A stretch of DNA of 64,000 nt. Source: Candidatus Krumholzibacteriota bacterium. GTDB lineage: Bacteria > Krumholzibacteriota > Krumholzibacteriia > Krumholzibacteriales > Krumholzibacteriaceae. A program made the position numbers and the translations under genes. The notes beneath the pieces are model-generated. The model saw nothing but the letters and a program-made list of their open reading frames with translations, was not told the DNA's origin and searched no databases. Shown here piece after piece: positions 17,669 through 48,504 of this stretch (positions are counted from its first letter, which is position 1; each line of letters begins with the position of its first letter). Location of the stretch: positions 1 to 64,000 of the forward strand of contig JAFGBF010000016.1 in the NCBI GenBank assembly GCA_016933255.1. Reading direction: 5' to 3'.

Positions 17669-18184
17669 ATGGGCGCAGTGTTTGAGCATATCGGCCTGGT
17701 GCTGCTGTATATCTTTTTCCTGCTTCTCAATCTGCTTATATTTGTGGGGCTTCCGGGCTCGTGGGTGATGTTTGCCGGCATCATCATATACCTTCTTTTT
17801 GCCGGTATTTCGTCGATAGGCTGGACCTGTCTGATAATCATGGCCGCTCTTCTTGTAATCGGCGAGATAGTCGAGTCCACTCTCGGCGTCGTAGTCGCTG
17901 CAGGAAAGGGGGCGACAAGGTGGGGGATCCTGGGCACCTTTCTCGGCGGGATCGCGGGCGCGATCGGGGGCACGGCGATAATCCCGGTCATCGGGAGTGT
18001 GATATTTGCCCTTGTCGGAGCATTCGCCGGGGCTGTGATCTGTGAATATATATATTACAACTCCCTTGATCAGGCTCTCAGAACAGGATTTTTTGCCTTT
18101 ATCGGCAAGCTTCTGGCGATCTTTGTCAAGGTCGCGCTGGGTTTGATAGTCCTCGGTCTTTTCATTTATAAAAGCTGGCCCTGA
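17669..18184 (+). CDS. DUF456 family membrane protein
   Basis: 171 residues, almost entirely hydrophobic with four or five helices and two Gly-rich stretches (LGTFLGGIAGAIGGTAIIP; GAFAGAVICEYI) typical of DUF456. The family has no established function. GAGG upstream supports the ATG. It follows secF by 50 bp and probably shares its transcript. Confidence 0.82.
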   Translation: MGAVFEHIGLVLLYIFFLLLNLLIFVGLPGSWVMFAGIIIYLLFAGISSIGWTCLIIMAALLVIGEIVESTLGVVVAAGKGATRWGILGTFLGGIAGAIGGTAIIPVIGSVIFALVGAFAGAVICEYIYYNSLDQALRTGFFAFIGKLLAIFVKVALGLIVLGLFIYKSWP

Positions 18185-18279
18185 CCCGCAAATGTATATT
18201 TTTCAGGACATCATTCTAAAAAACAGGACACTTTCATTTCGAAGAGCCCCGTAACTCGTTATTTTTCATCTTAATCTAA

Positions 18280-18294
18280 TGGCACATGCCTTGC
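18280..18294 (+). promoter_or_regulatory. Sigma54-type (-24/-12) promoter
   Basis: TGGCACATGCCTTGC has the invariant GG and GC at the correct spacing and TGGCAC plus TTGC exactly as in the family consensus TGGCACG-N4-TTGC. The start would be near 18306, giving a 156-nt leader before the DUF4783 gene and the NtrY-like kinase. Sigma54 promoters need an enhancer-binding ATPase, which is not encoded in this window. Confidence 0.72.
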
Positions 18295-18305
18295 CCTTAT
18301 ATTAA

Positions 18306-18461
18306 AGGCTAACGTGATTGTGCCGCCTTTGAAGCAGAGGCGGTGTGGCTGCGGCGTAGAGACAGCCGTTCCCGGACCGCCGGCAACCTGAACCGGGTCA
18401 CTCCCGTGATTTTCGGGAGGAACCTGCCCGGGAGCTGCGATCCCTGGGGAGGAAAGTCGTT
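18306..18461 (+). ncRNA. Candidate structured 5' leader (unidentified)
   Basis: Four successive hairpins can be drawn: CCGCCT 18323-18328 with AGGCGG 18338-18343; GGCTG 18347-18351 with CAGCC 18363-18367; CCCGG 18371-18375 with CCGGG 18393-18397; CTCCCG 18401-18406 with CGGGAG 18414-18419. Then CCTGCCC (18423-18429) can pair at six of seven positions with GGGGAGG (18446-18452), which contains the ribosome binding site. It fits no riboswitch class I can recognise. It may be a translational control element. Confidence 0.4.
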
Positions 18462-18953
18462 TTGCGAAGTTTGCTCATATATCTATCTGTGATTTCTTTC
18501 ATATCGCTTATGGTCTGGCCCTGTGAGATTGAGGCACAACGCCCCGGAAGGACTCTCCAGGATCCTGCTTCGCTGAAAGAGGCCAGTTCCCCCTCGAAGA
18601 TCTTCAGTAAGATAGAGATATCGTGGCGGAATTCAGATGCCAGATACCTGGCGGATCTTGTGGGCAGCGGAAAGGCATATATAGTGTTGGGGGAGAAAGG
18701 TCCCCGGGGCGGTTATTACAGCAAGTCACAGGTCTTTTATCTTATGAAGAGGATGTTCGGGGAATATTCCCAGCTAAAGTTTGAATTTGTAAAGTATCAC
18801 AATATCAACGATAGAAGCAAAAAAGTCTTCGCGGTCGCTTCCCGAAGCTATAAAAACATTCGCAGTGACAAGGTCTTTCAGGATAAGGTATACATTACAC
18901 TCGGTAAAGAGGGGGATGACTGGGTGTTGACCGAGATCAAGACTACGCGATGA
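18462..18953 (+). CDS. Exported DUF4783-like (NTF2-fold type) protein
   Basis: 163 residues with a signal peptide (MRSLLIYLSVISFISLMVWP, cleavage near EAQ). The rest has the DUF4783 pattern: GGYYSKSQVFYLMKRMF, then FEFVKYHNIN and DKVYITLGKEGDDWVLTEIK, a cone-shaped NTF2-like fold in which no catalytic residues are obvious. TTG start at 18462, supported by GGGGAGG ending 9 nt upstream. It stands 31 bp before the giant sensor kinase and shares its sigma54-type promoter, so a periplasmic accessory role for that kinase is possible but unproven. Confidence 0.7.
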   Translation: MRSLLIYLSVISFISLMVWPCEIEAQRPGRTLQDPASLKEASSPSKIFSKIEISWRNSDARYLADLVGSGKAYIVLGEKGPRGGYYSKSQVFYLMKRMFGEYSQLKFEFVKYHNINDRSKKVFAVASRSYKNIRSDKVFQDKVYITLGKEGDDWVLTEIKTTR

Positions 18954-18984: not shown

Positions 18985-21900
18985 GTGTATATTGAAAAAG
19001 AAAAAAAGATATTCAATACTGCTCTCTGGGTGTTTCTGATTGGGGCACTCGCTTTTTTTATCGCATTTATCTCGACAGGAAGGATCAGTATCAAGGCCAC
19101 CGTATGGCTCGTCCTTCTTCTCCTGAATGCCGGGTTCATAATATTCATACTCCTGCCCTATCCGGGAAGGAAGCTTGCGGGGCCGCGGCGCGGGGCGCAT
19201 ACCCAGAAGAAATGGTATCCGAAAAACCTCTCCGATATAGTGGAAAAAAAGGAAGAAGGGCCTGAAGACCGGAAACGAAAGATCTTTTCTCCGTCCAGGA
19301 CGATAGAACCTGTTCCGCTGATCCCCCTTTTGCTTCTCCTTGTCACGATTATTTTCGCAATGCCTCTCAGGCGTGAATCTGAACAGTCGCGAGAAAAAGA
19401 GGTGAAGGCCCTCGTTGAGATCTTTGACAGATCAGGTTCGGCAATCAGAGATCTCGAAGAGGCTGCGATCTCCAGCGCGGAAACAAGCGCTGGATTTCTT
19501 GCCGGGTACGATCTCGAAAGGATCGCCAATGATGAAGTCGCAAAGTTGATGACGGCTCTCGATTCTATCGCTGTCGATAAGGGGGCGGGGCTCAGGCCTT
19601 TTGGTGAACTTGGCATACAGATATATTCGATGAGCGGTAAAAGGGTGGCGTGGGGCGGGTCGCCCCGTTATCACGGGAGCGTCCTGCCTGAAAGCGAAGA
19701 TTCAGTAATATTTACCAGCATGACACAGCTTTATACTCTGCTTGTCTATGAGGCTCCTTTGCCCGCCGGCGGGAGGGTAGTGATCGATATACCTCTGGAG
19801 GTCAACTACCGGATAAGCAACAGGTTTCTAAAAAACACAGGCATTGCGGAGATGCTTACAGTCAAGTATGGCCACGAAGTCGAGTTCAGGTTCTGGATGG
19901 GTAACGATCCGGGCGGCGCAAATTGGAAAGCAGATGAACTTCTGGAAAGAAAGCCCCGGGTCGTCAGGGAAGAGAGCGGAAAGGTCAGAGTATTCGGAGT
20001 CCTTCGATCAGTCTTCGGCCACAGGCTGGCAATTCTTAACGTAAGCGGAGAGACGTACGGCGCAGCGATAAGTTCGAAAGAGAAAAAAAAGACAATGTGG
20101 GCTGGCGTACTTCTCATTATTAACGTCCTGGTCCTGGCCAAATGGGTCTATCACAGGTTTGCCAAGAAACTAAGGGTGGGGCGGGGAGAAATATGGAATC
20201 TTGTCAGGCGGGTAGCATTTCTGACATTCCTCCTTGTTTTGATCAGATACATCCTGCTGCGGACAGATACACCGAGCATCTTTTTCGGGATCAACCTCTT
20301 CGATCCGGCTCTCTTCGCCGATAATCTTCCGGGAGGTCTTGCGAGGACCACGGGGGATTTTCTTATTACATCCCTCTTTTTTCTGATACTGGTCTTTGGC
20401 GTAGTAAAGGTCTTCCGCACATATTATTCCGGATACATGGAGAGGAAGATCGAAACAGGGAAAAAAACCAATTATCTGAGAATCGCCGCAAAAGCTGTTT
20501 TGCTGACATTGATCCTTGCGGCGGCGGCCTATCTTTCTTCGCGGACAGTCTCAAGGGTGATCCTCAACGCCAATCCCAGATTGCTCGGCCTCGACACGGA
20601 ATTTTACAGAGTACCGGTGCTCTCGCTCCACATGGCCATGCTTTTTTCTTTGGCCGGGATTTTCATCACCACGATCTTCTGTAGCCGTGTCGTCCTGGTA
20701 TGGGGAGGAGGCAATCTTCTGGAGGGTATCCCGGCGGGTATAGCCGCGATCGCTGCGATGACGCTTTTGCTCGATCCTCACTGGTCGCTGATCGCCGCCT
20801 GCGCGGCCCTGTTTTTCCTTTCTGTGAGGATCTTTCCCCTGCTTAGAAAAGAAGAAGCGCTTTCGCTGATATTTACCTCTTTTTTCATAGTCCTTGTCTG
20901 TTCTCTTGTCGTGTACGGAATCGCTTCATCGGAATATGAAGGGCTGCGCAGGGGAAGAGTGGTGGAAAAACTGGAAAGTTTCAATGATCCCGAAGGCAAC
21001 TGGCTGATGATCGTACTTCCGGATCTATGTGAGAATATTACTCAAAGCAGGGCTGCTACGGCGAAAGTCCTTTCGAGAAAAAACTCTACGGCATTCGAAT
21101 TATGGGCAGAAAGCGAACTGAGCCGATTCGGGTTTCCATGCGTTTTTGATGTCTATGACGCCAGAGGAACCAGGTTTTCCAGATTTTCAATGGGGATGCC
21201 TTATGAAGTGATCTACGCTCTCCCAGATACTCTGAGGGTAAGCCAGGTGCCTGATGTAGTGAAGATCACAAGGGAGACAGAGGTGGGTAAAGTCCATTTT
21301 CTGATCGGAACAGCTCCCCTTTATCATATCAACGGGATCAGCGCCGGGTATGTCGAGATCAAGGTGCCGTACTTCTTCGATAACCCCGAACTGCTTGTAA
21401 GCGCTGGCCCGATGGCGCCGGAGATATTCAAGAATCTGGAAAGCGGAGAACTTGCCCCGAGGATAGACGAACCGGAGGATCTGCTGGTGGCGCGTATCAG
21501 CGCAGGCAGGGTGATAAGTTCATCAGCGCCTGTTATCGCGTCAGGAGCGGCGCTGTCGAAAAAAGAAGGAGAATGGTTCAAACTTGAAGCTGACGGAGAA
21601 AGGTACAGCTGCCTGACAGGATACGGCGCGGAAGATAAGGGTTATCTGGTCGGTTACAGGGAGGGATCGTTAAACGATCGCATCCTTCAGTGGGCGATGG
21701 TGGTCTCCATCAATATAATCCTGACTCTGATATCCCTTGCAGTCCTGCTTATCATACGCAGGCTCCCGATACTGGGGAGCCTTACGCCCGCGGTTGAATT
21801 TTCGAACAGGCTGAGTTTCAGGCGCAAGCTGCTCCTCTCATTCCTTGCGGTATCTGTCATGCCTGTGATCCTGATGGGAGTCTTTTCCGGAAGATATATC

Positions 21901-23859
21901 AAGTACAGATTCAGGGCGGAGGGAGACCGTGAAGCTTTGGCCGCCGTCAGATCGGCAGAGTCGTTTATCCGCCATTCGATAAGGTCTGAAGCTGAAGCAT
22001 TTGCGGGAAGCCAGTATCTTGGAGACGTTCTTTCCGGAGAGGAAGACCCGGAGATAAGGGATATCTCTAGATTCGAGGGCACGAGATTCACTTTGTTTGA
22101 CAGGGATGGGGATATCCTTCTTGATGAGAACCTCGGCGATTTCAGCGGTGAAGAGATCGGTCATCTTATTTCGCAGAGCGAGACAGGCATGGTGACTCTG
22201 ACGTACAGCTATCCGTTCCTGTATGGGGGAACGGTAATACCTGTTTCGCTCCCGGGCAGTCCCAAGGGATTTCTTTTCTACACAAGGAGACTTGACGATG
22301 ATTTCATCGGGAAAATAGCCGGTGTCATCGGACAGAATATTAACATCTATTTTGACGGGACGATAAAAGCGACAAGTAAAAGAGAACTTTTTACCGGAGG
22401 TTTTCTCGATCAGCTTCTTTCCCCCTCCGTCTATGCCGATATAGGTCTTGGAGGAAGCAGCACGATTGTGCGCGACCAGACTCTTGGAAATTATTCGTAT
22501 AAGGTCGCAAACAGGGTGCTTTCCTCGATCTCCGGGAATATAAGATGCGTGCTTGCTGTCCCTATGCTTTATCGTACTGCTCTTGTCAGAAGAGAGGTCC
22601 TGAAGTCATACGCCCTTATTCTGGGGCTGCTTGCGCTGCTCTTTTCCGCCGCTGTAACGCTTGGGGTATTTCTCGCCGGGAAGATCATAAACCCGATCGC
22701 AGCTCTCAGAGGAGGAACAAAAAGGATAATCAAAGGGGATCTTGAATTTATGCTGGAGGCGGAAGCCCAGGATGAGATAGGCGATCTTGTCGATTCTTTC
22801 AACACGATGACGACTGCTTTGAGAGGAGCAAGGCGCGATATCCTGGAAAGGCAGAGGTATCTTTCCGCGATCCTTGAAAATATCGGGACCGGCGTAGTGT
22901 CGACTGGAAAAGACGGCCGTATAGCTACGATCAACCCTTCGGGCGAAAGACTCTTCGGTCTGAAAGGAAGGGAAATAATAGGGATGAAACCCGAAGAAAT
23001 CGGTCAAAAAGAGTTGGCGCCTTTCATGGATCTGTTCGATATAAATTCCGAGGAAACAATTGAAAAAGAGATAACACTTCTTCCAGGAGAGAACAAACGT
23101 ATCGTCAAAGCGGTAATAACAAGGCTGTCTGCCGAAAATGAAAATCTTGGGACGGTGATAGTCTTTGACGATCTTACCGAATTGATAAAGACGAAGAAAC
23201 TGTCGGCATGGGTGGAGATGGCCAGGCAGATAGCGCATGAAGTAAAAAATCCTCTGACTCCGATAAAACTTTCTGTGCAATTGATGCAGAGGGCTTACAG
23301 GGGGGATAGGGAAGAGTTCGCGCAGATCTTCGAGGAGGGCTCTGAAACAGTAATTCGACAGACAGAAATACTTAAGAAGATAGCATCAGAATTTTCAAGT
23401 TTCGGAAAGGTGATAGATCTCAACCCTGAAAAAATAGAGGCCGGTGATTTTATAAGAAAGATACTATCAGGGTATAAAGGCGCCGATGATGTAGAGATAA
23501 GTTATACTGAAAAAGACCAGGTGGCAGTATTAGCCGACAGGGAAGGGTTGCGGAAGATCATCGTGAATCTTATTGAGAATGCACTGGATGCGATGGAGAA
23601 TGGCGGAGGATTGGAGGTCGGACTCGCTCGGGAAGGGTCGATGGCAGTGATCTCCGTTGTCGACAGCGGGATCGGGCTGTCTGGAGAGATCGAAGGAAAG
23701 CTATTTGAGCCTTACTTTTCCACCAAGACTAATGGTACGGGGCTGGGCCTTGCTATATGTGAAAGTCTCGCCAGGGAAATGGATGGAGAGATCGTTATCA
23801 GGAACAGAAGCGGTATTCAGGGAGTCGAAGCTATTATCAGAATACCGGCTGCGGAGTAA
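18985..23859 (+). CDS. Very large NtrY-like membrane histidine kinase
   Basis: 1624 residues, about twice the usual NtrY length. The N-terminal 1200 residues alternate hydrophobic clusters (near residues 10-55, 105-125, 365-530, 545-660, 890-990) with extracytoplasmic stretches. A last helix near 1207-1228 is followed by HAMP (to about 1285), PAS (1290-1400), HisKA with His1418 in MARQIAHEVKNPLTPIKLS and HATPase (NLIENALDAMENGGG; TNGTGLGLAICESLAREMDG). The kinase core and the NPLTPIKLS box are NtrY-type; NtrY kinases signal through an NtrX-type sigma54 activator. No regulator gene is adjacent. GTG start at 18985. The stop is 3 bp before the DUF4159 gene, so co-transcription with the envelope genes downstream is likely. 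Confidence 0.86.
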   Translation: MYIEKEKKIFNTALWVFLIGALAFFIAFISTGRISIKATVWLVLLLLNAGFIIFILLPYPGRKLAGPRRGAHTQKKWYPKNLSDIVEKKEEGPEDRKRKIFSPSRTIEPVPLIPLLLLLVTIIFAMPLRRESEQSREKEVKALVEIFDRSGSAIRDLEEAAISSAETSAGFLAGYDLERIANDEVAKLMTALDSIAVDKGAGLRPFGELGIQIYSMSGKRVAWGGSPRYHGSVLPESEDSVIFTSMTQLYTLLVYEAPLPAGGRVVIDIPLEVNYRISNRFLKNTGIAEMLTVKYGHEVEFRFWMGNDPGGANWKADELLERKPRVVREESGKVRVFGVLRSVFGHRLAILNVSGETYGAAISSKEKKKTMWAGVLLIINVLVLAKWVYHRFAKKLRVGRGEIWNLVRRVAFLTFLLVLIRYILLRTDTPSIFFGINLFDPALFADNLPGGLARTTGDFLITSLFFLILVFGVVKVFRTYYSGYMERKIETGKKTNYLRIAAKAVLLTLILAAAAYLSSRTVSRVILNANPRLLGLDTEFYRVPVLSLHMAMLFSLAGIFITTIFCSRVVLVWGGGNLLEGIPAGIAAIAAMTLLLDPHWSLIAACAALFFLSVRIFPLLRKEEALSLIFTSFFIVLVCSLVVYGIASSEYEGLRRGRVVEKLESFNDPEGNWLMIVLPDLCENITQSRAATAKVLSRKNSTAFELWAESELSRFGFPCVFDVYDARGTRFSRFSMGMPYEVIYALPDTLRVSQVPDVVKITRETEVGKVHFLIGTAPLYHINGISAGYVEIKVPYFFDNPELLVSAGPMAPEIFKNLESGELAPRIDEPEDLLVARISAGRVISSSAPVIASGAALSKKEGEWFKLEADGERYSCLTGYGAEDKGYLVGYREGSLNDRILQWAMVVSINIILTLISLAVLLIIRRLPILGSLTPAVEFSNRLSFRRKLLLSFLAVSVMPVILMGVFSGRYIKYRFRAEGDREALAAVRSAESFIRHSIRSEAEAFAGSQYLGDVLSGEEDPEIRDISRFEGTRFTLFDRDGDILLDENLGDFSGEEIGHLISQSETGMVTLTYSYPFLYGGTVIPVSLPGSPKGFLFYTRRLDDDFIGKIAGVIGQNINIYFDGTIKATSKRELFTGGFLDQLLSPSVYADIGLGGSSTIVRDQTLGNYSYKVANRVLSSISGNIRCVLAVPMLYRTALVRREVLKSYALILGLLALLFSAAVTLGVFLAGKIINPIAALRGGTKRIIKGDLEFMLEAEAQDEIGDLVDSFNTMTTALRGARRDILERQRYLSAILENIGTGVVSTGKDGRIATINPSGERLFGLKGREIIGMKPEEIGQKELAPFMDLFDINSEETIEKEITLLPGENKRIVKAVITRLSAENENLGTVIVFDDLTELIKTKKLSAWVEMARQIAHEVKNPLTPIKLSVQLMQRAYRGDREEFAQIFEEGSETVIRQTEILKKIASEFSSFGKVIDLNPEKIEAGDFIRKILSGYKGADDVEISYTEKDQVAVLADREGLRKIIVNLIENALDAMENGGGLEVGLAREGSMAVISVVDSGIGLSGEIEGKLFEPYFSTKTNGTGLGLAICESLAREMDGEIVIRNRSGIQGVEAIIRIPAAE

Positions 23860-23862
23860 GCG

Positions 23863-24594
23863 ATGAACTCGTTCCTGAAGACCCTGATTTTCCTGATACT
23901 GATCGCAGCGGCGGCGCTTTGCGTGAAGGGGCAGGGGTACTACCGCCCGGAAGAGGATCCGGCCGCAGCAGAGCCCGGGGAGGAAGAGATAGATATCGGG
24001 CGGGCAAGGATCGGGATCGGACGGGTGAGGTACGGCGGCGGCGGCGACTGGTATGGAGATCCTTCATCGATACCTAATCTTTTGAAGGAGTTCAGCAAAA
24101 GGACCGGGATACGAACTGCAAAAAACGAGACTGTCGTCAGTCTTCTCGATCAGGATATCTTTTCTTATCCTTTTCTGTATATTACGGGGCACGGAAATAT
24201 AGGTCTTCAGGAAGAGGAGCTGGCGAACCTACGCAGGCATCTTCTGGGAGGAGGGTTTCTCTACGCGGATGATAATTATGGTATGGATGAATCCTTCCGT
24301 TCGATGGTAAGCAGCCTTTTTCCAGAAAGAGATCTTGTAGCAGTCGCCCTGGATCACGATATCTATAATTGTTTTTATCATCTTGAAGGCGTTCCAAAGA
24401 TCCATGAACACGGAGGGAAACCGCCGGAAGGGCTGGGTGTCTTTAACGGAGACCGTTTGATGATCTTCTATACTTACGAAAGTGATATCGGTGATGGGCT
24501 CGAAGACGCCGATGTCCATGGAGATCCACCCGGGAAAAGGGAGGCGGCGGTCAGGATGGCGGTGAATATCCTTTATTATGCCCTTACCTACTGA
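23863..24594 (+). CDS. DUF4159 domain protein, exported
   Basis: 243 residues. Signal peptide (FLKTLIFLILIAAAALCVKG), then the DUF4159 core: IGRVRYGGGGDWYGDPSSIP, LYITGHGNIGL, LRRHLLGGGFLYADDN, GMDESFRSMVSSLFPE and VALDHDIYNCFYHLEG. The fold is a class-I glutamine-amidotransferase-like Rossmann type; DUF4159 is commonly found C-terminal in, or beside, MoxR/BatA-type clusters. Biochemical role unknown. ATG 3 bp after the kinase stop. It overlaps the DUF4175 gene by 17 bp. Confidence 0.85.
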   Translation: MNSFLKTLIFLILIAAAALCVKGQGYYRPEEDPAAAEPGEEEIDIGRARIGIGRVRYGGGGDWYGDPSSIPNLLKEFSKRTGIRTAKNETVVSLLDQDIFSYPFLYITGHGNIGLQEEELANLRRHLLGGGFLYADDNYGMDESFRSMVSSLFPERDLVAVALDHDIYNCFYHLEGVPKIHEHGGKPPEGLGVFNGDRLMIFYTYESDIGDGLEDADVHGDPPGKREAAVRMAVNILYYALTY

Positions 24595-27500
24595 AAAGAT
24601 ATTTGCCGAGCTGTCGGCTTCTGTCAGACGGCTTTCCTCGATACGGCGTCTCTATATGACAAGGGGCCTTTTTTCCCAGACAATTGCCTGGACAGCATCG
24701 ATATTCCTGTTCCTCCTGGCAGGCGGACTGATTTTCCGCAGCTGGAGGTACTGGCCGCTGGCGTGCTTTATATTCTTCTGGGCAGGCATGATAGCCATCG
24801 CGGTCAATGCTGCTTTCCGGGTGCGGCGGGGCTTCAAGCCGGTTGAAGAGCTTGCTGGTGATCTTGGAAAGAAGACCGGTAATGGGAGCCTGTTTTCCTC
24901 AGCGCTGGAGTTTTCTGAAGAAGGGAAAAGGCTTGAGCAGTACTCGGGATTTCTAATGAAAGAGACGGTGAAAAGGGCCTCGCGGAAAATTGCAAAGATC
25001 TCTCCTTCAGATACCTTCGAAGCCGAGGGAAAAACGGGCTGGATGATTCTTGCTTCGGTGCTGTCTATGATCCTTCTTCTTATTACATTCAGCTCGAGCA
25101 GACAGGCCGCAGGGCTGTTACGGTCGTTAGGCGACCCCGGGGTAAGTTTTTCTTTCAGACCGGGAAACAATCTGCTTCTCACCGTAAGAGACACGACTGT
25201 TGTTGCCGGAGAGGATATTACCGTCAAGGCCGTAAGGATGGGGTCTTTGCGGGGGAAAGTCGAAATCAGGTTCAGCAGCCTTCCGGGGGTCTGGAAGAGA
25301 GAGGCGGTAAAGCAGGGAGAAGATCTTCCCGAAGGAGAAAGAGAAAGAAATTTCCGGCATACGTTCAGGAATGCAGAAGAAGATATCGAATATTATTTCA
25401 CCTCGGGCGGAGAGAGGACCAGAAGCGGCCGCATCAGTGTAATACAAAAACCGATCATAAATTGTATCGGGGCAATCCTGGATTATCCGGCATACACGGG
25501 AAAAGCTCCGGACACTTTGTCGGCGCTTGCAGGAAAAACGGCGGTTCTCTTCGGTACGCGGGTGGTTCTTTCCGGAGAAGTCAACAAGCCTGCAGTGAGT
25601 GCGCGGGCTGATTTTTCGTCGGGGCTCAAAGTCGATCTCAATACGGAGGGAAAGAGGTTTTCGGGGGAATTCATGGCGGAAAAGAGCGACACAATAAGAT
25701 TTTCTGTTACAGATTCAGCGGGGCTTGTCAGTGATTCCCCGGTAAGGTATCCCCTGGTCTGCAGAAGCGACAGAGCACCGTCCATAGAAATACTGTCTCC
25801 TGAGGATCATGCGGTCCTTCCCCGCTCGCTCAGGACGACTCTGCTTTTCAGGGCAACAGACGACTACGGAGTGTCCGAGATACATCTCAGGTATATGAAG
25901 GAAGGCAGGGATATAAGCTTTTCCACAGAAGTGATCGAAAAGAAAGACGAAAATATTTCAAAAGAGATCGAAAGACCGTACGAGTGGTCGCTCGAGGAAG
26001 AAAGGGTCTTTCCCGGGGACAGGATCGATTATTACATGGAAGCATGGGATAATAACGATCTGAACGGACCGGGGTATGCCAGGACGAAAGTCTTTAGAAT
26101 TACGATGCCTTCATTATCGGATCTGTACGAGCTCGCTCGAAAGAAAGATCAACTTAGAGAAAAGGATTTCGAAGATATTCTCGAAGAAAGCAACGAGATC
26201 CGGCAAAGGCTTAAAAAATTCTCGGATGAATTCAAGGCGGCTGGACAGATGGACTGGGAGAGCAGAGAGGAGGGAAAAGAAATCCTGGGAATCCAGGAAA
26301 AGATCAGAGAAAAAATAAGGGAAGCGGCCGGAAGCATAGAAAAAAGTCTGGGGGAATTGGAAGAAAACAGGATGACTTCGATGGAGATCGGGAGAAAGAT
26401 GGAGGAGATACAGGAGCTTCTCGAGAGGATAGAAAGCGAAGACCTTGCGAAATCGATTGAAAAGCTGCAGGAGTTGATGAGAGATATGCCTGAAAGCGAA
26501 GTCTCATCCGCGCTCGATGATATAGATCTGCAGGCGGAAGACCTCTCCGAAAGCCTGGATCGGACGATCGAACTGCTCAACCGTATAATCAGGGAAGAAA
26601 AGATGGAAGAACTTCTCCGCAGGATGGAAGATATCATCGAGCGGCAGATCTCCCTGAGAGATTCTACAGAGAACGGAGATCTTGACAGGATCGCCGAAAA
26701 AGAGAAAGAGCTGAAATCAGATTACAGTTCCCTGGAGAATGATATGAGGGATTTCGCTGAAAGCACAGGCGAAAAAGAGACCGGATCAGAAACGGAAGAG
26801 CTTGTGAAAAAGATCGACGAAGCGAAAGCAGCCCCTCATATGCAGGAAGCTGTCAGCCGGATGGAATCCGGCGAAAGAAGTGAAGCGAGGAAGGCTGAAA
26901 GCGATGCGGTCAATGAGATGTTCAGTCTGTACACGAGCCTCGGACGATTTCAGATGTCGATGAATATGGTCGCGGAGATCGAAGCTGCCAGGATAGTTGA
27001 AAGTTCGTTATGGAAGCTTATCGAGATCTCCCGGCTGTCGGAAAGTTTCGCCGGCCAGGCCGCTCTTCGCTCGGCTCCATCAAGGCTTGACAGCCTGCTT
27101 GAAGAACAGGCCGTTATCAGAGACGCGATAAGAAAGGTGCTGGGCGATCTTCTTGAAGCGGCAAGGATGAGGCTGGGGATATCGAGAAGCGTTTTCAGCC
27201 ACCTTTCGGCGGCCCTCGTCACGATCGAGGATGTAATCGCTTCAATGGAAAACAGGCGGTTTTCACAGGCGGCCGATAGATCAAACCAGATTATGACCGA
27301 ACTTAATCTGACGATAATCGAGTTGCTCAAAACCAGTTCCGCTTCGGGAGGAAGCGGTGGAAATTCAGGACAGAGTATGCAGTCTATGCTGAACGGACAG
27401 ACGTCGATAGACCGTCAGCTGAAAGAGATGATGGGAGGGGGAGATAGCGGGAACTCTCTCGAAGCAAGAGCAAAGATGGCCAGGTTGGCCGCGGAGCAGA

Positions 27501-27913
27501 GAAAGATGGAGGAGTTGCTTCAGCGGATTAAGGAGGAATCTCTGGGAACCGGCGAGATCATCGGGAAACTGGACGATATGGGGTCTGAGATGAAGGAGAT
27601 CGCCGGGCAGCTCGATGAGGGGCGTCTTGATAAAGAACTGATAAAAAGAGAAGAAAGAATCCTCAGCCGAATGCTCGAATCCCAAAGATCCCTGAACAGG
27701 CGCGACTACAAAAGAGAGAGAGTAAGCAGGACAGCGGGAAATATGGGAGCGAAAGATGCCGTAGAGAAGTCTGGTAAAAAGGACGAGCTTGAATTCATCC
27801 TGGAAAAGATCAGAAGAGGGATGCAGGAAAAAGGGCCTGCCGAATATGAAGAATTGATACGAGCCTATTTCAGGGCCCTCTCCCGGAGAGCAAGGGAAGG
27901 TGCGACAAGATGA
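24578..27913 (+). CDS. DUF4175-family membrane-anchored coiled-coil protein
   Basis: 1111 residues. Three hydrophobic helices (about 28-47, 52-72, 150-170) anchor it. Residues 190-470 look like beta-sandwich domains (PIINCIGAILDYPAYTGKAP; SDRAPSIEILSPEDHAVLP). From about 500 to 1090 it is highly charged, Glu/Lys/Arg-rich coiled coil. This matches DUF4175, a family of unknown function usually encoded in MoxR-AAA/DUF58/BatA clusters together with DUF4159. Here it overlaps DUF4159 by 17 bp and the TPR gene by 4 bp, so the three are translationally coupled. Likely a scaffold spanning the periplasm. Confidence 0.83.
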   Translation: MPLPTEKIFAELSASVRRLSSIRRLYMTRGLFSQTIAWTASIFLFLLAGGLIFRSWRYWPLACFIFFWAGMIAIAVNAAFRVRRGFKPVEELAGDLGKKTGNGSLFSSALEFSEEGKRLEQYSGFLMKETVKRASRKIAKISPSDTFEAEGKTGWMILASVLSMILLLITFSSSRQAAGLLRSLGDPGVSFSFRPGNNLLLTVRDTTVVAGEDITVKAVRMGSLRGKVEIRFSSLPGVWKREAVKQGEDLPEGERERNFRHTFRNAEEDIEYYFTSGGERTRSGRISVIQKPIINCIGAILDYPAYTGKAPDTLSALAGKTAVLFGTRVVLSGEVNKPAVSARADFSSGLKVDLNTEGKRFSGEFMAEKSDTIRFSVTDSAGLVSDSPVRYPLVCRSDRAPSIEILSPEDHAVLPRSLRTTLLFRATDDYGVSEIHLRYMKEGRDISFSTEVIEKKDENISKEIERPYEWSLEEERVFPGDRIDYYMEAWDNNDLNGPGYARTKVFRITMPSLSDLYELARKKDQLREKDFEDILEESNEIRQRLKKFSDEFKAAGQMDWESREEGKEILGIQEKIREKIREAAGSIEKSLGELEENRMTSMEIGRKMEEIQELLERIESEDLAKSIEKLQELMRDMPESEVSSALDDIDLQAEDLSESLDRTIELLNRIIREEKMEELLRRMEDIIERQISLRDSTENGDLDRIAEKEKELKSDYSSLENDMRDFAESTGEKETGSETEELVKKIDEAKAAPHMQEAVSRMESGERSEARKAESDAVNEMFSLYTSLGRFQMSMNMVAEIEAARIVESSLWKLIEISRLSESFAGQAALRSAPSRLDSLLEEQAVIRDAIRKVLGDLLEAARMRLGISRSVFSHLSAALVTIEDVIASMENRRFSQAADRSNQIMTELNLTIIELLKTSSASGGSGGNSGQSMQSMLNGQTSIDRQLKEMMGGGDSGNSLEARAKMARLAAEQRKMEELLQRIKEESLGTGEIIGKLDDMGSEMKEIAGQLDEGRLDKELIKREERILSRMLESQRSLNRRDYKRERVSRTAGNMGAKDAVEKSGKKDELEFILEKIRRGMQEKGPAEYEELIRAYFRALSRRAREGATR

Positions 27914-29778
27914 CTGCCTCATCCTTAGCAATAAAAAAGGCGATACTCCCCGCCGTATTGATCCTGTGCATGGGATCTGTGGTCATTGACGCTTCGGCCG
28001 ATGAAATTAAAAAACCGGTCAGTGCGGATATGATCAAGCAGGGGCGAAGCAAAGCGATGGAATTGCTCGCCGGCAGGAAATTCGACGAGGCGGTAATCCT
28101 GCTGCGTGAGCTGCATGAAAAAGCCCCGCAACATCATGCCTTCACTGAACTTCTCGCCGATACCTATCTGCGGATCAGGGAGCCGGAGAAAGCCGCCGAG
28201 CTGCTTGAAAAAGGGCTTAAGGACTTTCCGGGGCGAACAAAGTACGCGGAGGCTCTTGGAAAAGCATATCTCGATATGGGCCAGAGAGAAAAAGCTGTAG
28301 AGGTATGGCACAGCATCCTTGGAGAAAACACCGTGCACCCTTACGATTACGTGACAATAGCCGGGATCGAATGGGAAGCCGGTCTCTTTGAGACAGCGAT
28401 CGTGACGCTGCGCGAAGGAATAAGGAATGGGAAATATTTCCAGCGGGCCCAACAGAAACTGATAAAATATGAAACACTGTTGGGAGATCATGACTCCGCT
28501 TTCAGGGACGGGCTAATATTCCTTGATGCTCATGATGACCCTCTCGCAGGAAATATCGATTTTCTCCTGGAGTCGTTCAGAGATTCCGGGCGGACCGAGG
28601 ATCATCTCTCCGCTGTCGATTCCCTTGCCATAGTCTCTGAAAATCACAGGAGGTTTTTCACGATCGTCAAGGGTGTCCTCCTTGTCGAATCAAGGCGGTA
28701 CGGGGAAGCGGAAAAGGTTTTCCGCGAGATGGAGCTTACCGACAGGGAGATGTATTTTGTTTTGGGGCTCCTCTTCAAGATGAAAGAAAACCAGGGTTCC
28801 GGGAAATTCCGTGATTTTGAAGCTTCGCTGAGTGATGAATTCCTTCGAAGAAATCCGGAATCTCCGGTTGTTCCGCAGGTCCTTCTCTCAATCGCTGAAT
28901 CAGAAATAGCCGCGATTACGGAAAAAGGAAAGATCTCCGACAGAGACGCGGATGCAGTCGTCTCGATCCTCGATCGGGTGATCGGGCACCGGTATGGAGC
29001 TTCGTACAGAAAAAGGGCAGTACTGCTCAAGGCCGGATTCCTTTACTATGAGATGCACAGGCCCGCGGAAGCTCTGGCCTCTTTGCGCGGAGCCGAGTTT
29101 ACCGATATAAAGGATATTAGGGAAAGTGCAAGGATAGAGGTGCTCTCTCTGCTCGCTGGCGGCCAGAAGTCAAAAGCAGGGAAAAGATTCGCACAATTGT
29201 CTTCGTACCCCGATTCAAGTATCGCGGCGCTGGGAAGATTCGCAGCCGGTACACTTTTCTTTTTAACCGGCGAATATCAGAAATCGATAACTGAGTTATC
29301 GGGCCTTGCTGAAGATCATCCGTCGAGTGAATGGGCCAATGATGCACTTGACAGGGCAGTGTTGACCAAGAAGGCGATGGCTGACGGCAAAGAAAGCCTG
29401 AAGATCTATTCGGCAGCCGTACAGATGGAATTAAGGGGCGAGTTTGACAAAGCGGCGGCGGCGCTTGATTCGCTGATCAGAGACTTTCCCGGATCGTATT
29501 TATTTGCTGCGGCTGTATATTCCAGGGCCTTGCTGCTCGAAAAAGGCGGCAACCCGCACGCAGCCGCCGAAGCTCTGCTGAGATTCGCTGAAAAATATCC
29601 GCTTGATGATCTTGCTCCAAAAGCTCTTGAAAAGTACGCAGTTTTGATCGAAGCCGAATATCCTGATTCGGCGTCGATAATCTTCGGCCAGGTAATGGAA
29701 AGATATCCGGAATATCATTTTATCAGCAGGGTAAGAGAGAAATATATTTCGTCTAAAAAATCAAAAGGCGGCGGATAG
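27910..29778 (+). CDS. Exported TPR-repeat protein
   Basis: 622 residues. Signal peptide (KKAILPAVLILCMGSVVIDA, cleavage near ASA). At least eight TPR-type helix pairs are visible, for example AMELLAGRKFDEAVILLREL, PEKAAELLEKGLKDFPG, AEKVFREMEL and ALDSLIRDFPGSYLFAAAVY. Such arrays bind partner proteins; here probably periplasmic and tied to the DUF4175 and DUF4159 products, since its ATG overlaps the DUF4175 stop (ATGA). No enzymatic domain is visible. Confidence 0.85.
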   Translation: MTASSLAIKKAILPAVLILCMGSVVIDASADEIKKPVSADMIKQGRSKAMELLAGRKFDEAVILLRELHEKAPQHHAFTELLADTYLRIREPEKAAELLEKGLKDFPGRTKYAEALGKAYLDMGQREKAVEVWHSILGENTVHPYDYVTIAGIEWEAGLFETAIVTLREGIRNGKYFQRAQQKLIKYETLLGDHDSAFRDGLIFLDAHDDPLAGNIDFLLESFRDSGRTEDHLSAVDSLAIVSENHRRFFTIVKGVLLVESRRYGEAEKVFREMELTDREMYFVLGLLFKMKENQGSGKFRDFEASLSDEFLRRNPESPVVPQVLLSIAESEIAAITEKGKISDRDADAVVSILDRVIGHRYGASYRKRAVLLKAGFLYYEMHRPAEALASLRGAEFTDIKDIRESARIEVLSLLAGGQKSKAGKRFAQLSSYPDSSIAALGRFAAGTLFFLTGEYQKSITELSGLAEDHPSSEWANDALDRAVLTKKAMADGKESLKIYSAAVQMELRGEFDKAAAALDSLIRDFPGSYLFAAAVYSRALLLEKGGNPHAAAEALLRFAEKYPLDDLAPKALEKYAVLIEAEYPDSASIIFGQVMERYPEYHFISRVREKYISSKKSKGGG

Positions 29779-47439: not shown

Positions 47440-47454
47440 TGGCATATTACTTGC
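47440..47454 (+). promoter_or_regulatory. Sigma54-type promoter of the receiver/GGDEF-kinase operon
   Basis: TGGCATATTACTTGC has TGGCA and TTGC at exact sigma54 spacing. The start would be near 47466, about 60 nt before the ATG at 47527. A half copy of the 38711 element (CTGCAAAT) lies near 47337. The rest of 47277-47439 holds nothing else I can name. Confidence 0.68.
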
Positions 47455-47526: not shown

Positions 47527-48504
47527 ATGGGGTCTGAAAATATAAAGGGAGAATTCAAAATACTCGTTGCCGATGACGAGGAGCATATCAGGAGAATACT
47601 CCAGTTTCAGCTTGAGAAATACGGATTCGAAGTCCGGACAGCCGAAAATGGAGAGATAGCTCTTGAGATGGTACACCGGGAGAGGCCTGATCTCCTGATC
47701 CTCGATCTTATGATGCCGAAGGTCGACGGGTTTGAAGTCTGCAGAAAGTTGAGATCGAATTTCCAGACAGCCCAGATCCCGATAATCATGCTGACCGCCA
47801 AGAGCGATCTTTCAGATAAGATAAAGGGGCTTAGTGACGGAGCGAACGATTATCTGATCAAGCCGTATTCGAACGAAGAATTGATCCTTCGGGTAAGAAA
47901 CGTCCTTGAATGGAGCCAGAAGCAGAAAAACGCCAACCCGCTTACAGGTTTCGCCGGAAACAAGGCGATCGAAAAAGAACTTCAGCGAAGGATCGAGGCC
48001 GGAGAATCGTTCGCATTCCTGTATATCGACATAGATAACTTCAAAGCTTACAACGACTATTATGGCTATCACAAAGGCGATGAAGCAATCGTTTTTGCCG
48101 CCGATACGATCTCAGAAGCCGTAGAATCGCTGGGCGGGCCGGATGATTTTGTCGGTCATATTGGAGGGGACGATTTTATCGTCCTTACATCAGTAGGCAG
48201 GGCGGAGTTCGTATCCCGCCACGTAATAGATGAATTTGATAAAGGGTCGCTGTTTCTTATGGACGAGGAAGATATCAGAAGAGGATATCTGGAGATCAGA
48301 AACCGCCTTGGAGAGATCAAAAGAGTGCCCCTTATGTCTCTGACCGTAGCGATCGTCATCAACGAAAATCAGCGGCTGCGCCATTTCGCGCAAGTCAGTG
48401 ATATCGCTTCGGAACTTAAAAAGTTCGGCAAAGGTATGACCGGAAGCGTAGTCGTCAGAGAAAGACGCAGGAAGACGAATCCTGCTGAAAAAATAGAATC
48501 ATAA
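47527..48504 (+). CDS. Response regulator with degenerate GGDEF output domain
   Basis: 325 residues. Receiver domain 1-120 (KILVADDEEH; phospho-acceptor Asp60 in LLILDLMMPKVDG; MLTAKSD; KPYSN). Residues 135-310 are a GGDEF-type cyclase domain (NPLTGFAGNKAIEKELQ; YIDIDNFKAYNDYYGYHKGD). The signature at 213-217 is GGDDF instead of GGDEF or GGEEF, so diguanylate cyclase activity is uncertain; no RxxD inhibitory site is visible. First gene of the operon, driven by the sigma54-type element. It probably takes phosphate from one of the three kinases that follow. Confidence 0.86.
   Translation: MGSENIKGEFKILVADDEEHIRRILQFQLEKYGFEVRTAENGEIALEMVHRERPDLLILDLMMPKVDGFEVCRKLRSNFQTAQIPIIMLTAKSDLSDKIKGLSDGANDYLIKPYSNEELILRVRNVLEWSQKQKNANPLTGFAGNKAIEKELQRRIEAGESFAFLYIDIDNFKAYNDYYGYHKGDEAIVFAADTISEAVESLGGPDDFVGHIGGDDFIVLTSVGRAEFVSRHVIDEFDKGSLFLMDEEDIRRGYLEIRNRLGEIKRVPLMSLTVAIVINENQRLRHFAQVSDIASELKKFGKGMTGSVVVRERRRKTNPAEKIES

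Follow-up and report, generated by a model that had tools for sequence, protein, structure and literature searches.

A conserved sigma-54 promoter and a probable tandem dyad enhancer upstream of a DUF4783-like gene and an NtrY-like kinase gene in Krumholzibacteriia

Sigma-54 promoters of the NtrC/NifA type combine an enhancer, a site at which IHF (consensus YAANNNNTTGATW) bends the DNA, and the -24/-12 element. Proteins with the DUF4783 domain (PF16022) are represented by Bacteroides structures (PDB 4orl, 4q53, 4ouq), and a literature search for DUF4783 returned 0 papers. In the NtrYX system, NtrX of Rhodobacter sphaeroides is reported to bind upstream of envelope genes and of the ntrYX operon that encodes it, binding of Brucella abortus NtrX upstream of its own ntrYX operon is cited in the same paper, and GCAn9TGC has been proposed as the NtrX motif of proteobacteria (PMC7240162); the TGTCC/GGACA described below is unlike it. 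TGTCC or GGACA had 0 matches in the text, motif figures excluded, of PMC4641369 and PMC3333781, and a search combining 'krumholzibacteri' with 'sigma-54', in that spelling only, found no paper linking the two.

Here, we analysed a 64,000-nt stretch of a Krumholzibacteriota genome (the window), and compared one of its operons with these systems (Table 1). Like enhancer-dependent sigma-54 promoters that use IHF, the locus has a -24/-12 element, a tandem dyad upstream activating sequence (UAS) about 50-90 bp upstream of -24 and an IHF-like block between them, and the genome encodes RpoN and NtrC-family activators. Unlike typical sigma-54 systems, the UAS (TGTCC...GGACA) was matched to no named activator, and the stretches read around the operon contain no activator gene. 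Like NtrYX, the locus has an NtrY-like kinase core, the genome an NtrX-like regulator, and this regulator is proposed to bind upstream of the kinase operon. In contrast with NtrYX, kinase and regulator are encoded on different contigs, the 1624-aa kinase gene lies behind a DUF4783-like gene, the DNA motif is different, and the regulator scores under the curated NtrX cut-off. The DUF4783-like protein shares a predicted NTF2-like fold with the Bacteroides proteins, but it falls under the Pfam cut-off and is encoded beside a sensor kinase. We consider it highly probable that the locus carries a conserved sigma-54 promoter and a dedicated enhancer with an ordinary leader; the class is little studied, and the kind of system is an ordinary one.

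Table 1. Features of the operon and its upstream region (window coordinates)
Feature	Position	Strand	Basis or remark
Putative tandem dyad enhancer (UAS), consensus TGTCCnCTTTtnnGGACnCcATTCTcCAAAAgtGGACAc	18193..18230	+	conserved in aligned family promoters; strict pattern counts
IHF-like block TAACTCGTTATTT at -28	18252..18264	+	YAACn(3-4)TT at conserved position
Sigma-54 -24/-12 promoter TGGCACATGCCTTGC	18280..18294	+	exact pattern match; precedes orthologues in 27/29 regions, 23 strict
Predicted 5' leader, GC-rich, not conserved	18306..18461	+	+1 from spacing only
Ribosome-binding site GGGGAGG	18446..18452	+	sequence
DUF4783-like protein, signal-peptide-like N terminus (by eye), predicted NTF2-like fold, TTG start	18462..18953	+	
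NtrY-like sensor histidine kinase, 1624 aa (HAMP, PAS, HisKA, HATPase)	18985..23859	+	
DUF4159 protein	23863..24594	+	same operon by spacing
1111-aa protein, membrane and coiled-coil segments by eye	24578..27913	+	overlaps DUF4159 gene
622-aa TPR-type protein	27910..29778	+	overlaps gene of 1111-aa protein

The DUF4783 label given to the first gene in the initial annotation holds by predicted fold and is weak by sequence. The product scored 18.8 bits, below the Pfam cut-off of 24.1, and 14 of 16 orthologues matched the family at E up to 1 (best 4.2e-05). Its predicted structure (mean pLDDT 82.1) has an NTF2-like fold, the top PDB match is 4orl, itself a DUF4783 protein, and the ten best matches include 4q53 and 4ouq. 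The gene is present in 17 of 20 genomes of the family and was found by profile in 48 of 78 genomes of the class. Residues 1206-1624 of the kinase match annotated S. meliloti ntrY (E 8e-44, 28.6% identity, 95% coverage); no NtrY model was among the 25 of 82 NCBIfam matches listed, the best of which was AtoS, below its cut-off. The kinase is unusually long, and no Pfam match begins before residue 1229.

The promoter was judged to be real because it is conserved, not because of its motif match alone. The strict pattern was TGGCAY-N5-TTGC, and variants one base off were also counted. With up to one mismatch to this pattern, 5 sites were observed in the window and 4.23 were expected, so the pattern alone proves little. 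The site at 18280-18294 had been called the best -24/-12 match in the window; it is indeed an exact match to TGGCAYNNNNNTTGC (TGGCAYN5TTGC), but it shares this rank with 47440-47454, and these two are the only exact matches. Loci were available for 30 of the 48 class genomes with a DUF4783-like match, and one of them (G019) is cut at a contig end, which left 29 orthologous upstream regions. A -24/-12 site precedes the gene in 27 of these, comprising 23 strict sites and 4 that are one base off (GGGCA in G012 and G075, ATGC in G013 and G018), where both accepted variants were added after the sequences had been seen. By family, the site was found in 16/16 regions of f1, 6/6 of f7, 4/4 of f5 and 1/1 of f8, and it was absent from both f3 regions examined (0/2). 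When TGGCAYN5WTGC was searched on both strands of the 29 loci (191,778 bases), 25 of its 26 occurrences were this promoter. When 18250-18560 served as a DNA query against 38 other genomes, the promoter stretch alone matched, in G001 and G011. Thus the sigma-54-type promoter claimed in the initial annotation is strongly supported, with sequence, spacing and enhancer conserved among orthologous upstream regions. Between 18100 and 18480, two sigma-70-like matches were found against 0.3 in shuffles, one of them a weak one (9 of 12) at 18123-18150 on the + strand, and there were 0 terminator-like sites.

The initial annotation had covered 18280-18461 only, and the UAS and the IHF-like block just outside it went unnoticed. 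The UAS consists of two palindrome-like sites about 20 bp apart, at a near-fixed distance upstream of -24. Counted from the T of TGGCA, the window copy has the right half GGACA at -54 and a degenerate left half, TGTAT, at -87. In an alignment of 17 family promoters, four of which were shifted by 1-3 bases, the UAS averaged 1.19 bits per column; the upstream flank reached 0.24, the linker 0.25 and the leader 0.33. Among the 16 f1 promoters, 14 have the right half GGACA at -54 to -57 and 10 have an exact TGTCC at -87 to -90; of the 6 f7 promoters, 4 have GGACA at -55 to -57. YAACn(3-4)TT is present in 11 of the 16 f1 promoters, where it stands at -28, and in all 6 f7 promoters, where it stands at -29/-30; YAANNNNTTGATW between UAS and -24 is matched in full in some relatives, such as G017, and imperfectly in the window. 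Neither the UAS nor the IHF-like pattern was present in the three f5 regions with enough flank, the fourth having 37 bases only. A different block, around CTTTTTGGCCACGA, is common to the f5 upstream regions L096 and L097, which lack the UAS; it is perhaps the site of another activator.

TGTCC/GGACA-like inverted ends occur in insertion sequences, and this would favour reading the upstream dyad as the end of a mobile element, or else as a chance repeat. The genomic distribution makes such a reading scarcely credible. Searched with up to 2 mismatches, the strict pattern GGACANCATTCTNNAAAANNGGACA had one match per genome in 12 of the 20 family genomes, and all 12 lie before this operon at the near-fixed distance from -24; it had 0 matches in the 60 other class genomes, and its reversed control had 0 in all 80. 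G005, G008, G010 and G017, four genomes of the family that do have the gene, differ from the strict pattern by more than 2 mismatches. GGACAn45-52 followed by the promoter matched 15 times, in 13 of the 20 genomes; 12 of these matches belong to this operon, and the control gave 0.

The region downstream of the promoter had been proposed to be a new regulatory RNA, perhaps shared by related genomes, with a masked ribosome site. Such a structured RNA would be of the riboswitch or thermometer type. We regard this as very unlikely, although parts of the description stand. The leader length of 156 nt agrees with a transcription start predicted at about 18306 from the usual spacing and the TTG start at 18462. 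The hairpins are able to form, but their stability is marginal, as the fold energy of 18306-18480 lies only slightly under that of shuffles (z = -1.71, equalled or bettered by 11 of 200 shuffles). CCTGCCC, which starts at 18423 and was suggested to cover GGGGAGG, pairs with the first three G of the site (p about 0.8), but the remainder is not covered by it, and the three bases that follow have their partners at 18474-18476, inside the coding sequence (p about 0.8). Masking of the ribosome site is ordinary and no better than with shuffled leaders: its mean unpaired probability was 0.157, compared with 0.249 (sd 0.118) for the shuffles, and 42 of 200 were as low. The comparison with relatives argues against the RNA. 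In G001, the sole other genome of the genus, the leader is about 40 nt long and the hairpin stretch is absent, and across the 27 promoters the estimated lengths range from about 15 to 156 nt (starts chosen by hand). Nine of the 16 family leaders were aligned; no column was invariant or nearly so, little was common beyond the first bases, and the RNAalifold consensus fold had 0 pairs. The covariance check suggested for homologous leaders therefore gave no consensus pairs, in the sense that homologous hairpins are absent rather than that pairs are broken. Seven other leaders folded no better than shuffles (z from -1.11 to +1.87). With the leader as query, BLAST searches of the window and of the extracted loci returned self copies and one 22-nt match (E 0.03). 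The earlier statement was that no known riboswitch family fits, and an Rfam scan gave no match at gathering anywhere in the window; at E up to 10, three chance matches (E 3.2-4.3) lay near the leader. When its three frames were read by eye for a small ORF, one was open past the gene start. The leader looks like a normal 5' UTR, particular to its lineage, in which no regulatory fold could be detected; an RNA specific to this species is improbable, and no observation demands it. The case is a caution that a GC-rich leader should not be taken for a regulatory RNA without relatives.

Given the promoter and the enhancer as described, the identity of the activator has to be weighed. The genome has one sigma-54 (RpoN) gene and 18 sigma-54 activator domains above 130 bits, none of them on this contig. 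No activator gene was present in the stretches read around the operon, and tblastn of 17 of the genome's own activators against the window and 25 orthologous loci (3.6-20.5 kb) gave receiver-domain matches only, with 35 from the positive control. We infer, with about even chances, that the activator of this promoter is the NtrX-like response regulator encoded at G000:C11:128459-129835 (L024), because it has the top NtrX score, no kinase signature nearby and a counterpart in the NtrY-like kinase core downstream of the promoter, and because of the Rhodobacter precedent. On the NtrX model it was first of the six receiver-type activators scored, with 449.5 bits (the others 348.5-404.3; curated cut-off 600), and 16 kb read around its gene contained no kinase signature. 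We place this identification no higher because the NtrC model scores it as high as the NtrX model does, slightly higher in fact, at 450.7 bits (NtrC cut-off 558.6); its best PDB match is 5m7n, a nitrogen assimilation regulatory protein, with NtrC-family entries close behind. The NtrX-like gene had matches at E up to 1e-105, some of them paralogues, in 76 of the 78 genomes of the class, including families in which no DUF4783-like gene was found. Its near-universal presence means that distribution does not single it out. In the window's genome it is followed by a gene whose 1016-aa product is a TPR protein that carries a sigma-54 activator domain (G000:C11:128459-133545, L140), and the reciprocal matches of these two genes lie less than 4 kb apart in G007, G036 and G047.

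It is nearly as plausible that a different member of the NtrC family acts at the same promoter and enhancer; candidates include L023, L022, the PAS-type L031 and the TPR-type L037. In a comparison of one genome per family, from which the own activator L039 and the f7 locus L229 were left out, 8 of the 17 activators, five of them receiver-type, had reciprocal best matches in f1, f7 and f5. L023 (C3) and L022 are receiver-type activators that are likewise without a kinase signature nearby, and the dyad does not resemble the motif proposed for NtrX. What speaks against these candidates is the NtrY-like kinase downstream, together with the rank of L024 as the most NtrX-like of the receiver-type proteins scored; moreover, of the four other receiver-type activators with reciprocal matches in all three families, three adjoin a kinase signature. 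L022 in particular exceeds the PEP-CTERM regulator cut-off (563.9 vs 502.6) and lacks reciprocal matches in the genomes of f7 and f5.

For the conserved promoter with its enhancer, the following course of activation can be proposed. Sigma-54 polymerase would be held in a closed complex at 18280-18294, dimers of the activator would occupy the tandem dyads at 18193-18230, and IHF may bend the DNA at 18252; ATP hydrolysis by the activator would then open the promoter. In this way, a phosphorylated NtrC-family activator could switch on the operon for the secreted NTF2-fold protein and its probable kinase partner, and if the operon-encoded kinase phosphorylates the NtrX-like regulator, the circuit would form a positive feedback. 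A stronger version is a split loop, in which the NtrX-like activator, through the sole strict enhancer of each genome, drives its own giant NtrY-like kinase together with the DUF4783-like partner, the DUF4159 gene and the TPR genes; we put this forward tentatively, as a rather unlikely possibility. If this is true, much of Krumholzibacteriia would have kept an envelope switch that reinforces itself and has a single target. The locus gives a testable regulatory unit in an uncultured class, made up of an enhancer motif whose geometry is nearly fixed, the operon it would control and a few candidate activators.

Sites of a similar kind were also seen elsewhere. GGACA stands at the right distance from promoter-like sequences in G006:C147, G009:C122 and G017:C41, which may be chance, and the first two of these precede unrelated-looking genes; the G009 site (G009:C122:83504-83575, L179) is sigma-54-like, with GGACA and GTAACGAGTTA, and lies upstream of an MglA-like GTPase gene (named by eye). 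In G004:C41, the UAS and the promoter lie at the contig end and the gene is cut off. The window's own genome has a second sigma-54 promoter with the same IHF-like block at G000:C28:8864-8906 (L201), upstream of a gene that by eye resembles one for a peptide-binding lipoprotein. The second exact sigma-54-like site in the window, TGGCATATTACTTGC at 47440-47454, lies upstream of an ORF from about 47529 that has a response-regulator-like start, with receiver-domain matches at 47557-48015.
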